Assembly (NCBI GenBank): GCA_017993835.1
Contig: JAGOLX010000004.1
Location: 62,001-126,000 of the forward strand
Length of the DNA stretch: 64,000 nt
Source of the DNA: Phycisphaerae bacterium
GTDB taxonomy: Bacteria; Planctomycetota; Phycisphaerae; Sedimentisphaerales; Anaerobacaceae
Direction: 5' to 3'
A model generated the notes under the pieces. The model searched no databases. It had not been told where the DNA came from and saw nothing but the letters and a program-made list of their open reading frames with translations. Position 1 is the first letter of the stretch. The number at the start of each line of letters is the position of its first letter. Of the stretch, positions 5,180-10,366 are shown piece after piece. Position numbers and translations under genes: made by a program.

Positions 5180-6538
5180 TCACCGTGTCATGGGCGCAGA
5201 GTCCGTGTGCAAGACACCAGTCTCCTCGTCCATCAGATAGCAGGCGGGTTCATTTCGCCAGGAGGCGTCCGCCGGGTCGGAATCGAGGAATCGGTAGTTG
5301 CCCTTGCACAGGCGGAACCAGCGGCACTTCAAACATCGCGGGTCCGCGTGCGTGTCCTTGTTTCGGAGCCTCGCCAGCACGGGGTCGGCAGTATTCGACC
5401 AGATCTCGTGGAAAGGCCGCTCTGTCACATCGCCCAGCGGGTAGTTCCGCCAGAACTGGTCGGGGTAGACCGTGCCGTCCCAGGCGACACAGGCAATCTT
5501 GTCGCCGACGCGGTTGCCACCGTTGGCCAGAAGCAGCTCGCGGGCCTGCTCGAAACCTGGATGATTCTCCCGCTGCATTCGCACCAACAAGTACGGCCCA
5601 TCTGCATGGTTGCCTACCGTCAACACCTCATCCACGAGGCCCTGCTCGACAAATTCGCGGGTCCTGTCGAAAATCGTATCGAGCACCGAACGGGTCCCAT
5701 GGCTCGTGACCGGGATTGGAGAAAGGCAGATCGGGCCTACTTGGGGAGGGAAGAATCTCCTGTTCGATTTTTCCCTCCCAGACTCAGGACGCGCGTCGAG
5801 GGATTCGGCCTTTCCATTCTTCAACGAAATCGAACCAAGAGATTTCGTCGAAGAATCTGGGCCCGATCTGCCTTTCTCCAATCCCTCTCGCGATCCGAGC
5901 AACGGTGCCTGGGCGGCCCGCCCCGTGCGGACGAGATGGTAGAAACAGATTCGCCGCACGCCGATGTCCCGGGCAATGTCGAAGACTGCGGGCACCTGGT
6001 CCGCGTTGGCCTGTGTGATCGTGAAGCGAAGACCCGTCCGCAGACCCGCCTTGCGGCAGTGCTCTATGCCGGTCAAGGCTGCACGGAAGCTGCCCTGGAC
6101 CTGGCGGAACTGGTCGTGGAACGGTTCTTGTCCGTCGAGCGAGATTCCCACGTAGCGAAGGCTCGCATCACGGAGCCGGCGGGCTACCTCCGAGTCGATC
6201 TGCGTGCCGTTCGTCGAGATCACCGTCGGCAATCCGATCCGCTTCGCTTCGTCGAGCAAATCGAACAGATCGGGTCGGAGCAAGGGCTCGCCCCCGCTGA
6301 ACAGGCAGACGGGGACCTGAGCATCCTTGAGCTGGCCCAGGAACCGCTTCGCCTGGTCTGTGGTCATCTCGCGCTCGCCGCAGCCGGAATCGGAGGCGCT
6401 GTAGCAGTGCAGACATCGCAGGTTGCAGCGTCGAGTGCAGTTGTAGGCAACGACCGGCCCGACGACGCGATCCCTGCGATATCGCAGGTCGTCCGACTGG
6501 CCGCCCAGGCCACAATACAGTTTGGAGACATTTATCAT
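5180..6538 (-). CDS. ahbC: Radical SAM Fe-coproporphyrin III synthase AhbC, carrying a 58-codon palindromic insertion
   Basis: A 452-residue radical SAM enzyme of the siroheme-dependent heme pathway. AhbC removes the acetate side chains of 12,18-didecarboxysiroheme to give Fe-coproporphyrin III. The [4Fe-4S]-SAM motif is C38NLRC42LHC45, followed by FSGGEP (GGE motif). The C-terminal CLKCRWFRLC region provides auxiliary-cluster cysteines in a SPASM-like tail. Assignment to AhbC rather than another SPASM enzyme rests on FYHLVRTGR, the VLDTIFDRTREF region and the heme neighbours. Codons 218-276 are foreign to the family: a 174-bp inverted-repeat element keeps the frame and separates LLGSRE from VTSHGTRSVLDTIF. 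Without it the protein would be about 394 residues, near the normal length. It starts 67 bases after the hemC-cobA-hemD stop, so it probably belongs to that transcript. Confidence 0.88.
   Translation of the reverse strand: MINVSKLYCGLGGQSDDLRYRRDRVVGPVVAYNCTRRCNLRCLHCYSASDSGCGEREMTTDQAKRFLGQLKDAQVPVCLFSGGEPLLRPDLFDLLDEAKRIGLPTVISTNGTQIDSEVARRLRDASLRYVGISLDGQEPFHDQFRQVQGSFRAALTGIEHCRKAGLRTGLRFTITQANADQVPAVFDIARDIGVRRICFYHLVRTGRAAQAPLLGSREGLEKGRSGPDSSTKSLGSISLKNGKAESLDARPESGREKSNRRFFPPQVGPICLSPIPVTSHGTRSVLDTIFDRTREFVEQGLVDEVLTVGNHADGPYLLVRMQRENHPGFEQARELLLANGGNRVGDKIACVAWDGTVYPDQFWRNYPLGDVTERPFHEIWSNTADPVLARLRNKDTHADPRCLKCRWFRLCKGNYRFLDSDPADASWRNEPACYLMDEETGVLHTDSAPMTR
5712..5885. repeat. 174-bp in-frame palindromic element inside ahbC
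   Basis: The outer arms 5712-5737 and 5860-5885 are a perfect 26-bp inverted repeat. Inside are two more hairpins: 5744-5752 pairs with 5771-5779 (9 bp), and 5817-5831 pairs with 5841-5855 (15 positions, one G-T wobble). The whole can fold as a three-stem junction. Its length is exactly 58 codons, with no stop in the ahbC frame. The flanks CTCGTGACC (5703-5711) and CTCGCGATC (5887-5895) resemble each other and may be a decayed target duplication. I see no second copy in the window. The arrangement resembles Rickettsia palindromic elements, which also sit in frame in genes, but I do not recognise this sequence. Confidence 0.9.
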
Positions 6539-6605: not shown

Positions 6606-9098
6606 TTACATACAACGCTCAACGTTCTCGATCGCGTCGAGCAGGCCGTCGATTGTGTGCTCCGTCGCCTCGGTATCGACCCGCACGCCGAGCCCGGCCA
6701 GCTCCTTCGAGGTCACCGGCCCGACCGAGGCGACCTTCACGCCATGGGAACGTACTGTCTCGGGCGAAATTTGTTCAAAGAACGAACGGACTGCCGACGG
6801 ACTGGCGAACGTCAGCCATTGGATTCGCCCCTGCTGCATCTGGGCAATCAGGGCAACGTCGTCCCCCTTATGCGGCACAGCGGTGTAGACCGCGACATCG
6901 GTCACGGCGGCTCCGCCCGTTTCGAGACCTCGCACCAGTTCGTCGGAAGCGATCTCCGACCGCAGCAGCAGAACTCTCTTGCCCCGCAGGTCGGTGTAGC
7001 CAATCAACTGTCTTGCCAACTCCCGGCCCGTGAAGACCTCGGGCACGAAGTCGGCTCGGATCCCATACTGCTGCAACGTCTCGGCGGTCCTGGGCCCGAT
7101 GGCCGCGATCTTCATCCCGCCGAAGACTCTGGCGTCCTTGCCGAGATCATGGAGGGCATCGAAGAACACCCGCACGCCGTTGGCACTGGTGAAGATCGCC
7201 CAGTCATAGCCGGAAAACTCCGCCAGTGTGCGGACGAACTCGCTGCGGTCCGTCATCGCCTGGATCGCCAGCGTGGGGAATTCAACAGGCCGGCCGCCGC
7301 GAGCGATCACCTTGCGGGCGGAATCCGTATTGCCTGCGGCGTCGCGGGTCAGGACGAGTCCCTTGCCGAACAGAGGCAACCGCATGAACCAGTTGAGGTT
7401 CGGATCGCCCGCCGCCGCGGGACCGACGACGATCAACGCGGGCGGTTCGATCCTCTGCCTGTCGCACTCGCTGGCGATCTGCCCCAGGGGAGCCTGGACG
7501 AGTCGCTGCGTGGGCAACGTCGCATCAGCCACCAGGGCCGCGGGCGTCTGGGCGGACAGGCCGCTGTCGATGAGCTTGCTGGCTATCGAAGCCAGCGCGC
7601 CGATGCCCATATAGAACACAAGCGTGCCGGGAAAGCGGGCCAGGACGTCCCAATCGAGATTCGTCTCCTCTTTGCCTTCCGCCTCTCGACCGGTGATGAA
7701 GGCTGCCTGCGAGCTGTACCGCCGGTCGGTGAGCATGATGCCCGTGTACTCCGCGGCGGCGATGGCGGCGGTGATCCCCGGGACAATCTCGAACGCGACG
7801 CTCGCTTCGTTGAGGAGCTGGATCTCCTCGGCGCAGCGGCCGAAGATGCACGGGTCGCCGCCTTTGAGCCGGACGACGGTCTTGCCTTCGAGGGCCTTGT
7901 CGAGCAGAATCCGATTGACCTGGCCCTGGGTGAACGAGCCGGGCCCAATCCGCTTGGGCACGCGGATGACCTCCGCCTCCTTGCGGACCAGCTCCAACAG
8001 CGACGGATTGGCCAGCTTGTCGATGATGACGCAGTCGGCGATCCTGAGCAGCTCGGCGCCGCGGAGGGTGATGAGGTCCGCCCGCCCGGGTCCAGCCCCC
8101 ACGAGATACACCGTCGGTTTCCGGGATGCGTGGTGGGCGGAGCCCACCCTACCGCTGTCGCCCGTCGCCCGGTCCCTCTCCAAATCGCGAAGGATGTCCC
8201 TGCCGCCGGCGTCGAGCAACTGGCGGGCCACCTGCTCGCCAACCTGGATCGCCTCCGACAGCGGCCCCTTCACCTGCCTCCCGACGAACCGGCGTCCCTC
8301 GGCATCCGCTATGAACGCGAGCACTTCGATCCTGTCGCCCGAGCGTTCCGCGTACGCCCCCACCGGCGCGTGACATCCGCACTGCGTGGTCGTGAGCACC
8401 TGCCGCTCGGCCAAGGCCAGGGCCCTTGACAACTCGTCGTCGATGGATCGGACAATCGCCATCGTTTCCTCGTCGTCGCTTCGCGTCTGCACGGCCAATG
8501 CGCCCTGGGCCGGCGCGGGGATGAACTCCTTCGGGTCAAGCACGATGGAGATCTCGGCACTCAATCCGAGCCGCTCCAGGCCCGCCCTCGCGAGAATGAT
8601 CGCGTCGAGATCCGTTGTCTTGAGCTTGTCGATCCGCGTCTGCACGTTGCCTCGCAGCGGGACCAGTTGCAGGTCCGGTCGGAGGCGGCGCAACTGGGCC
8701 GCTCGCCGCAGGCTGGATGTCCCGACACGAGCCGAAGGCGGCAAATCGTCGAGAGTCCGCACCGGCCGCTTCGCCAGCAGGCAATCCTCGGGCCACTGGC
8801 GGTCGCAGATCGCGGCCACGACCAGGCCCGCCCGCTCACGAGTGGGCAGATCCTTGAAGCTGTGCACCGCCAGGTCCGCCTCGCCAGCCAGCAGGGCCTC
8901 TTCCAGTTGCGAGGTGAAGAACCCGGTGTCCTTCAGGTCCCAGAGGGCGGTCTTGCGGTCGCGGTCGCCGGCACTGACGATCTCCCGGATGTGAATTTCG
9001 ATCCCAGGGCGCCTCGCCTCCAAGGCAGCGATAACGCTCCGCGTCTGCGCCAGGGCCAGTTGTCCCCGGCGTGTGGCAACCGTCAGCGTCCGGCTCAT
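6606..9098 (-). CDS. hemC-cobA-hemD: Triple fusion: hydroxymethylbilane synthase - uroporphyrinogen-III C-methyltransferase - uroporphyrinogen-III synthase
   Basis: One 830-residue polypeptide carries three consecutive tetrapyrrole enzymes. Residues 1 to about 308 are HemC, with catalytic Asp83 (HSFKDLP), arginine-rich GTSSLRRAAQLRRLRPDL and the dipyrromethane cofactor cysteine C242 (CGCHAPVGAYAE). Residues from about 325 to 565 are the SUMT/CobA methyltransferase (VYLVGAGPGRADLITLRG, VRLKGGDPCIFGR, EIVPGITAAIAAAEYTGI). Residues from about 570 to 830 are HemD. The protein could turn porphobilinogen into uroporphyrinogen III and then precorrin-2. The ATG at 9098 overlaps the hemA stop (ATGA), implying translational coupling. 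The HemC-CobA linker contains the small palindrome listed at 8132-8148. CobA-HemD fusions are known; adding HemC is less usual. Confidence 0.95.
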   Translation of the reverse strand: MSRTLTVATRRGQLALAQTRSVIAALEARRPGIEIHIREIVSAGDRDRKTALWDLKDTGFFTSQLEEALLAGEADLAVHSFKDLPTRERAGLVVAAICDRQWPEDCLLAKRPVRTLDDLPPSARVGTSSLRRAAQLRRLRPDLQLVPLRGNVQTRIDKLKTTDLDAIILARAGLERLGLSAEISIVLDPKEFIPAPAQGALAVQTRSDDEETMAIVRSIDDELSRALALAERQVLTTTQCGCHAPVGAYAERSGDRIEVLAFIADAEGRRFVGRQVKGPLSEAIQVGEQVARQLLDAGGRDILRDLERDRATGDSGRVGSAHHASRKPTVYLVGAGPGRADLITLRGAELLRIADCVIIDKLANPSLLELVRKEAEVIRVPKRIGPGSFTQGQVNRILLDKALEGKTVVRLKGGDPCIFGRCAEEIQLLNEASVAFEIVPGITAAIAAAEYTGIMLTDRRYSSQAAFITGREAEGKEETNLDWDVLARFPGTLVFYMGIGALASIASKLIDSGLSAQTPAALVADATLPTQRLVQAPLGQIASECDRQRIEPPALIVVGPAAAGDPNLNWFMRLPLFGKGLVLTRDAAGNTDSARKVIARGGRPVEFPTLAIQAMTDRSEFVRTLAEFSGYDWAIFTSANGVRVFFDALHDLGKDARVFGGMKIAAIGPRTAETLQQYGIRADFVPEVFTGRELARQLIGYTDLRGKRVLLLRSEIASDELVRGLETGGAAVTDVAVYTAVPHKGDDVALIAQMQQGRIQWLTFASPSAVRSFFEQISPETVRSHGVKVASVGPVTSKELAGLGVRVDTEATEHTIDGLLDAIENVERCM
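8132..8148. repeat. Small in-frame palindrome in the HemC-CobA linker
   Basis: A perfect 7-bp inverted repeat with a 3-base loop (GGTGGGC GGA GCCCACC). It encodes the linker residues GRVGSAHHAS. This hairpin resembles a widespread REP-like sequence that turns up in unrelated genomes, and here it lies in the flexible segment between two enzyme domains. Small size limits confidence that it is a mobile remnant. Confidence 0.5.
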
Positions 9099-10366
9099 TC
9101 GTCCCCCTCGCCGCGGGAGAAGAACATCTTGTTGACCAGGTCGATGGCCTGGAGCTGCTCGGCGCTGGGCTCGCCGCCGCCGTCCTTGATGAAGCTGATG
9201 GGCCCGTGCAGGACCTTCCGCACCAGCGACTCCGCAAAGGATTGCAGCTTCTCGCTGCTCGCGTCGCCGAAATCCTTGGCATAGCGTCGGGCCTCGCCAC
9301 GGGCCAGATCCAAACCCATCTGCGTCAGTCGCGAGATGACCGGGACCAGGTCGAGCGACTCGTACCATTGAGAGAACAGCGAGACGAACTCCGCGACAAT
9401 CCCCTGGGCCTTGGGGATCTCGCGGCTTCGTTTCTCACGATTGGCAGTGATCTGCCCGTCGAGGTCGTCGATGTTGTACAGGCGAACGCAATCGAGGCTG
9501 CCGATGGTGGGGTCGATATCCCGCGGCACCGCAATGTCCACGATCAACAGCGGTCGATCCCGCCCGGCCAAGGCCCACTCCACACCCGCCCGCGTTAGGA
9601 CAGGTTCCGGCGACGCCGTGGAGCTGATCAGCACATCGACGTCCACCAGTCGGGCGACGATCTCGGACAGACCGATGGCCTCGGCCCGCTCGAATCGCCT
9701 GGCCATCGCCCGCGCCTTCTCGACATCGCGGTTGGCAATCACGAGCCCGGATACCCCGGCCTTGGACAGGTAGTTCGCGACGAGTTCGGCATGCTCCCCG
9801 GCGCCGAGGATCATCGCCTTGCAGGTCGGCAGATCGGCTTTCTGGCGAGCCAGCTCCACCGCCGCCAGACCGATCGACACCGCGCCACAATTGATCTGGG
9901 TCCGAGTCCGCACCGCCTTGCCCACGCGGAATGCGTGGTGGAAGAGCCGGTGGAAAACCAGCCTGCTCATCCGCGCCTCCAGCGATTCCGTGTACGCGGT
10001 CTTCACCTGGGCGAGAATCTGGTTCTCGCCGACCATCTGCGAATCCAGCCCTGCGGCCACCTCGAACAGGTGCTGGACTGCACCGACTCCCGCCATTTCC
10101 TGACTGTGGGCGGTCCAGGCTTCGACCGCCTCGGTCCCATACATCGACAACACCCGGCCCAGGAACGCCCGACAGTCGAAATCCTTCTTCGCGTAGAGGT
10201 AGAATTCGAGCCGGTTACAGGTCTGGAGGATGACCGCCTCGCCGATCTGGTCCTGACGGTGCATCTGGCGGAGCATCTCACGCCGTTGCTCGGCTGTGAA
10301 GGTGACCTTCTCCCGAACCTCCACCGGGCAATCGTGATACGTCAAATTGTGCAGGACCAACTTCAT
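9095..10366 (-). CDS. hemA: Glutamyl-tRNA reductase
   Basis: A 423-residue NADPH-dependent enzyme that reduces glutamyl-tRNA to glutamate-1-semialdehyde, the entry step of C5-pathway tetrapyrrole synthesis. The catalytic cysteine is C50 in QTCNRLEFYLY. VAAGLDSQMVGENQILAQVK is the conserved substrate-binding helix region, and AMILGAGEHAELVANYL is the NADPH Rossmann motif. Length is normal for the family. It is the first gene of a minus-strand heme operon and its stop overlaps the start of the hemC-cobA-hemD fusion. A sigma70-like promoter (10403-10431) lies just upstream, divergent from resB. HemL, the partner aminotransferase, is not in the window. Confidence 0.97.
   Translation of the reverse strand: MKLVLHNLTYHDCPVEVREKVTFTAEQRREMLRQMHRQDQIGEAVILQTCNRLEFYLYAKKDFDCRAFLGRVLSMYGTEAVEAWTAHSQEMAGVGAVQHLFEVAAGLDSQMVGENQILAQVKTAYTESLEARMSRLVFHRLFHHAFRVGKAVRTRTQINCGAVSIGLAAVELARQKADLPTCKAMILGAGEHAELVANYLSKAGVSGLVIANRDVEKARAMARRFERAEAIGLSEIVARLVDVDVLISSTASPEPVLTRAGVEWALAGRDRPLLIVDIAVPRDIDPTIGSLDCVRLYNIDDLDGQITANREKRSREIPKAQGIVAEFVSLFSQWYESLDLVPVISRLTQMGLDLARGEARRYAKDFGDASSEKLQSFAESLVRKVLHGPISFIKDGGGEPSAEQLQAIDLVNKMFFSRGEGDE

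Follow-up and report, generated by a model that had tools for sequence, protein, structure and literature searches.

The RPEs of Rickettsia (Ogata et al., 2000, 2002), as outlined in PMC10969869, are palindromes of about 150 bp that form several families, lie in frame in unrelated genes and encode a conserved peptide; in the account given by PMC6649704, the identity of their repeats is reportedly lost over time. Other dispersed bacterial palindromes include MITEs, of which the QMITEs of Coxiella burnetii are an example (PMC5896051), and the REPs, which according to the description in PMC3733652 are 20–40 bp long and extragenic. Perfect inverted repeats within functional coding sequence occur in the mitochondrial genes of Nematomorpha, where template switching has been proposed to account for concerted evolution of the arms (PMC6649704), and the same paper cites, as hairpins in coding sequence, the bypass elements of Magnusiomyces mitochondria, which are also palindromic. 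Template switching between arms is treated in PMC8794818 and PMC8604942 as an established process, which homogenises arms and yields double substitutions. Searches of open-licence papers returned no report of such elements in Planctomycetota.

The locus described here lies in a 64,000-nucleotide stretch of a planctomycete genome (the window), where a 174-bp palindromic element interrupts ahbC. The element belongs to a dispersed family of palindromes and is not specific to ahbC. It resembles the RPEs in being a palindromic stem-loop unit, with a core of approximately 162 nt found in about 40 places, and in lying in frame within functionally unrelated ORFs, where it encodes a common peptide; the comparison with Rickettsia made in a sequence-only reading of this DNA was apt. 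Unlike the RPEs, it belongs to Planctomycetota rather than Alphaproteobacteria, its arms stay complementary by concerted change (with double changes in a same-site insertion), its interiors differ under constant arms, and its genic copies are found in both orientations; a search of NCBIfam and Pfam detected no sequence relationship. It shares with MITEs such as the QMITEs (PMC5896051) its small size, non-autonomous character, terminal inverted repeats, dispersal and occasional in-frame fusions, but is often located in the middle of conserved genes and is multi-hairpin over its whole length. The best reading is of a family of coding-compatible mobile palindromes that behave as the RPEs do, for which we claim no kinship to them. 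The features are collected in Table 1.

Table 1. The ahbC element and its host (positions in the window), followed by palindromes elsewhere (locus or contig).
Feature	Position or locus	Strand	Remarks
ahbC, 12,18-didecarboxysiroheme deacetylase, radical SAM; interrupted host	5180..6538	(-)	TIGR04546
Palindromic element, 174 bp	5712..5885	(-)	sense is the ahbC coding strand; encodes 58 residues
5' terminal arm (sense), GGGATTGGAGAAAGGCAGATCGGGCC	5860..5885	(-)	inverted-repeat analysis
3' terminal arm (sense)	5712..5737	(-)	matches the reverse complement of the 5' arm perfectly
Inner hairpin H1, first in sense	5816..5856	(-)	stem 5816-5831/5841-5856, 16 positions
Inner hairpin H2	5744..5779	(-)	stem 5744-5757/5766-5779, 14 positions
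3' arm outer extension	5701..5711	(-)	complementary in part to 5886-5896
5' arm outer extension	5886..5896	(-)	from the 37-nt, 89% arms
GAAGGTGAGAAGGTCGGA-type interior	L211, L214; half in L212		family arms kept
CACCCCCGCCCTCGGGGGTG/CCCCAGCCGGGGGCGGCTGGG-type interior	L128, L138, L136		family arms kept
GTGGCGAGGGC-type interior	L139		family arms kept
CATTCCCGCGAAGGCGGGAAT-type interior	L209		family arms kept
Second palindrome, EKVRRSEGEKVGEM...VRPSDLLNFSPS	G000:C91:52986-53102, C16:12382-12498, C53:68045-68161, C34:148022-148135		dispersed

Repeat analysis confirmed the arms as the perfect 26-bp inverted repeat seen by the sequence-only reading, and identified a longer version of 37 nt at 89%. 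The outer bases of the arms are variable among copies, with complementarity often retained, and the family consensus GGAAAAAGG is replaced by GGAGAAAGG on both arms of the ahbC copy. Two inner hairpins had also been proposed; both are present, although at positions better described by the stems in Table 1, and a 9-bp repeat (5762–5770/5827–5835) that had been taken for a hairpin instead links the loop of one hairpin to the loop of the other. The ahbC copy lacks one base in H2, as a result of which its last 15 or so residues are in a different, also open, frame compared to most copies.

The predicted RNA fold of the element has an energy of −118.8 kcal/mol, with z = −10 relative to dinucleotide shuffles and none of 200 shuffles equal to it; the predicted DNA fold has z = −8.2 on the same type of control. 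The fold is thus far beyond chance. A search of the window for RNA families matched a tRNA only. The 9-nt loops of H1 and H2 are exact reverse complements, for example TCTTGGTTC/GAACCAAGA, in just 3 of 33 copies; a kissing interaction between them was rejected, since the complementarity is not conserved. In those three copies it is perhaps a trace of copying between the hairpins.

The ahbC ORF encodes 452 amino acids and reads through the element without a stop, the 174 bp corresponding, as had been noted, to exactly 58 codons (residues GLEKGRSG...PICLSPIP). The NCBIfam model TIGR04546 matches AhbC with E = 5e-127 in two stretches, the better of which ends at residue 210, where the insert region starts; the insert splits LLGSRE from VTSHGTRSVLD. 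The 58 residues were held to have no counterpart in AhbC, and the orthologues examined indeed have a loop of just 10–15 residues or so at this site. Relative to the orthologue in the congener G004, the net insert is 61 residues and the dN/dS of ahbC is 0.12. AlphaFold gives residues 207–274 a pLDDT below 50, and the adjoining strand and helix values above 90; the insert is predicted to be a disordered loop that leaves the fold undisturbed. We note that ahbC is adjoined by a long ORF at 6606–9368, which reads as fused hemC, cobA and hemD. This hemC/cobA/hemD-like fusion beside ahbC suggests a siroheme-dependent heme cluster.

All copies were located by searches, in the case of the window's own genome (G000, 6.37 Mb) of a draft in 115 contigs. 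DNA searches found approximately 40 distinct places in this genome, at 72–89% identity and including fragments, of which about 30 are near-complete copies. In the core, a pair of terminal arms encloses two hairpins. At up to two mismatches the arm AAAAGGCAGATCGGGCC has 76 occurrences, compared to zero occurrences of the reversed control pattern. Copies are present in at least six of the eight congeners searched: five other genomes of the genus match by DNA, and up to seven by the encoded peptide, some of these matches being weak or fragmentary. Copies are numerous in G000, G001, G004, G005 and G007, and scarce or absent in G003 and G008. Across the order 9 of 161 genomes match, including two from outside the genus in which the matches are weak or decayed, and among 84,980 species genomes there are matches only in a few Phycisphaerae/Planctomycetota assemblies, one of which (UBA2218) is filed under Phycisphaerales. 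The search of planctomycete genomes that had been proposed for the 174 bp yields a dispersed family, nearly restricted to one genus. At one further locus (L207, G000:C64:18550) a single arm lies between the short, mutually complementary outer ends GGCTTGG...CCAAGCC, collapsed as if the palindrome had been mostly deleted.

To assign the coding frame on each side of 30 loci, codon statistics were derived from genes with domain support. Of these 30 copies, 16 are inside genes, and all 16 are in frame and free of stops, 12 in the sense and 4 in the antisense orientation. The 12 sense copies use one common frame, which is in phase with the coding sequence on both sides. Their hosts include ahbC, a pdxB-like dehydrogenase, NAD synthase, purQ, a PfkB/HAD protein, a cytochrome-c/beta-propeller protein, an FeFe-hydrogenase-like protein, an FtsK-like protein and a GH127 enzyme, among others; the antisense hosts are URO-D, RNase R and a beta-helix/PDZ protein, which are domain-supported, and a weaker fourth (L019). 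Domain models back most of the genic hosts. None of the 30 copies is clearly genic and out of frame, and four (L009, L021, L024 and L025) lie near ORF ends and cannot be placed. Copies also occur in intergenic DNA, and both orientations are found. One candidate interrupted gene (L012) was rejected: its thioesterase ORF stops before the element, which is therefore intergenic. In the congener G005 a copy lies in an ORF that is MurC-like by its sequence (L217, G005:C45:617–772); the downstream sequence includes an N and may be frame-shifted in the assembly.

The sense frame of the element is open in all 12 genic sense copies compared to 10 of the 18 others (Fisher p = 0.01). In the family consensus just one sense frame is open, and likewise just one antisense frame, and this accounts for the phase bias: a filter against broken proteins suffices. 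The excess of sense over antisense copies within genes (12 vs. 4, p = 0.08) is only suggestive. The idea that the element adapts itself to be coding is supported only in part, given its single open frame in each direction and the presence of both orientations in genes.

In orthologues from sister species the insert is absent at nearly every site, with net insert lengths of 156, 165, 165, 174, 180, 189 and 192 nt, all of which are multiples of three. The host genes have dN/dS values of 0.12–0.17 and are under purifying selection. There are two cases of insertions at the same codon in two species, G000/G005 in the pdxB-like gene and G000/G004 in the GH127 gene, and in one host gene the family occupies different loops in two species. 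The divergence of the element in the GH127 pair is similar to that of its host. In the pdxB-like pair the element has dS 0.05 compared to a host dS of 0.63; instead of being simply inherited, its copies may have been inserted in parallel or homogenised with each other. A single genus presents empty sites, filled sites and same-site insertions together, which makes both the spread of a palindrome within genes and the complementarity of its arms testable. In contrast to the Nematomorpha palindromes, the present sequence family is bacterial and dispersed, and has empty sites among sister species.

We propose, with considerable confidence, that the element is a genus-restricted, non-autonomous and coding-compatible mobile palindrome, whose arms are matched mainly by copying at the DNA level, and that AhbC is functional with its loop. 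The element would have spread through the genome and been retained in genes only where its length is a multiple of three and its frame has no stop. The ahbC copy is most likely transcribed and translated, as a disordered loop of about 61 residues that links a beta strand to a helix, and AhbC would remain functional with it. This is close to the sequence-only suggestion of a mobile insert accommodated by a surface loop, which is well supported by the dispersed copies, the empty sites in sister species, the in-frame presence in about 16 genes and the predicted disorder. It would mean that proteins can gain loops of around 60 residues in a single step.

We infer that the element is moved by a transposition machinery. 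PF01797 was the sole transposase family searched, and neither a transposase nor an autonomous relative was found; nor was a parent insertion sequence, of the kind expected for MITEs, found within that scope. No transposase-sized element was recognised between arms among the 76 arm occurrences. Like the REP elements moved by RAYT transposases, the family consists of dispersed hairpins in a bacterial chromosome; however, when up to 4 of 20 mismatches are allowed, the nearest 1.5 kb around each of the six PF01797 genes still contains no arm, and a RAYT/REP origin was rejected because none of the six has clear flanking arms. Comparison by eye of filled and empty sites in nine hosts showed no consistent target-site duplication, unlike MITEs, in which its length is fixed.

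The pairing of the arms was analysed over 33 copies. Double changes are found at 31 of 53 paired positions, and there are 117 double-change cells, compared to 29.8 in shuffles and 7–28 in slid controls. The core stems comprise 1524 Watson–Crick cells, 22 G-U and 26 A-C. In the GH127 pair, six paired positions of the predicted fold have changed on both sides with pairing retained, including one near the element's middle, which is poorly structured, and no pair of the core stems is broken. The arms of this shared insertion have changed in concert, so that perfect arms alone do not prove a recent insertion, one of the two readings that had been suggested for them. Selection on RNA is expected to prefer G-U over A-C. 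Since A-C is as common as G-U here, the pairing is not kept by selection on RNA and is probably kept at the DNA level; the count also implies that covariation in elements of this kind is no proof of a functional RNA. Homogenisation of the arms by template switching fits the arm data better than RNA selection does: one arm would be copied from the other at the DNA level, probably by replication template switching on the hairpin, for which the RNA fold is not needed.

The strongest alternative retains the mobile element but attributes the pairing to selection that acts, while source copies are active, on their DNA hairpin, for recognition by a transposase, rather than to template switching in place. 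Such selection could be the source of arm coevolution across copies: subfamilies show their differences on the two arms at once (as L030 does relative to the consensus), and the equal rarity of A-C and G-U is also compatible with it. The GH127 copies in G000 and G004 are harder to reconcile with it, because their stem pairs have become new Watson–Crick pairs on both sides with no break in the core stems, and a fixed genic copy has no transposition to select for; this argument fails if the two copies are independent insertions. We consider selection on source copies rather unlikely, though the most serious competitor to DNA-level copying in place.

It is improbable that the hairpin acts as RNA to regulate ahbC or slow its translation, as the sequence-only reading had also considered. 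The predicted fold is very stable, but the same element occurs in either orientation, both within genes that are unrelated and in intergenic DNA, A-C mispairs equal G-U pairs in frequency, and AhbC orthologues lack the element. Slightly less probable still is removal of the element from the mRNA or its bypass by the ribosome, for which the Magnusiomyces hairpins in coding sequence, as cited in PMC6649704, offer a precedent: the genic copies here, unlike translational bypass elements, are all in phase and stop-free (16 of 16) with lengths that are multiples of three, a constraint that would then be needless. An assembly artefact or a decaying pseudogene is barely credible; the genome is a draft, but separate congener assemblies also hold copies, some at the same sites, the hosts have the low dN/dS values given above, and the only AhbC match in the genome at E ≤ 1e-40 carries the insert. 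Nor is there much to recommend a true RPE family member acquired by horizontal transfer, which would share this architecture and behaviour, as neither NCBIfam nor Pfam yields a match to the peptide at a threshold as loose as E = 10, and both DNA and peptide are nearly confined to one planctomycete genus. Frequent in-frame palindromes in conserved genes, described as a peculiarity of Rickettsia, are found here in a distant phylum, where they apparently arose independently.

Several types of element have the family arms around other internal palindromes, as listed in Table 1. At one site in a gene for an MTHFR fusion, G006 and G008 lack any palindrome, G005 carries the arms with H1 and H2, G004 carries the same arms around GACCTCATTGACCGGGTTGAC..., and a third palindrome, TTCACCACAGAGGCACGGAGG..., occupies the site in the window's genome. 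We tentatively suggest a modular coding palindrome, in which template switching keeps the constant arms matched in place and these serve genes as a tolerated in-frame docking site, within which other palindromes are swapped or nested, although we consider this somewhat less likely to be right than wrong. Nested inserts would be expected because a loop that tolerates one insert tolerates further in-frame inserts. If this is true, one protein loop has been repeatedly rewritten between species.

The MTHFR/pterin-binding fusion (L128, G000:C110:1700–6100; L144, L142), an ORF of 1069 amino acids in the window's genome, contains several different in-frame palindromes, at both shared and differing sites. 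A second coding palindrome (EKVRRSEGEKVGEMVARD..SVRPSDLLNFSPS) is found in about 10 places, mostly within long open frames, which include NAD synthase and the MTHFR fusion; it sometimes shares host genes with the first family. Finally, a protein that is P-type-ATPase-like by its sequence (L214, G000:C91:166424–166534) has an in-frame palindrome soon after its TGES motif, with one family arm and a different interior.
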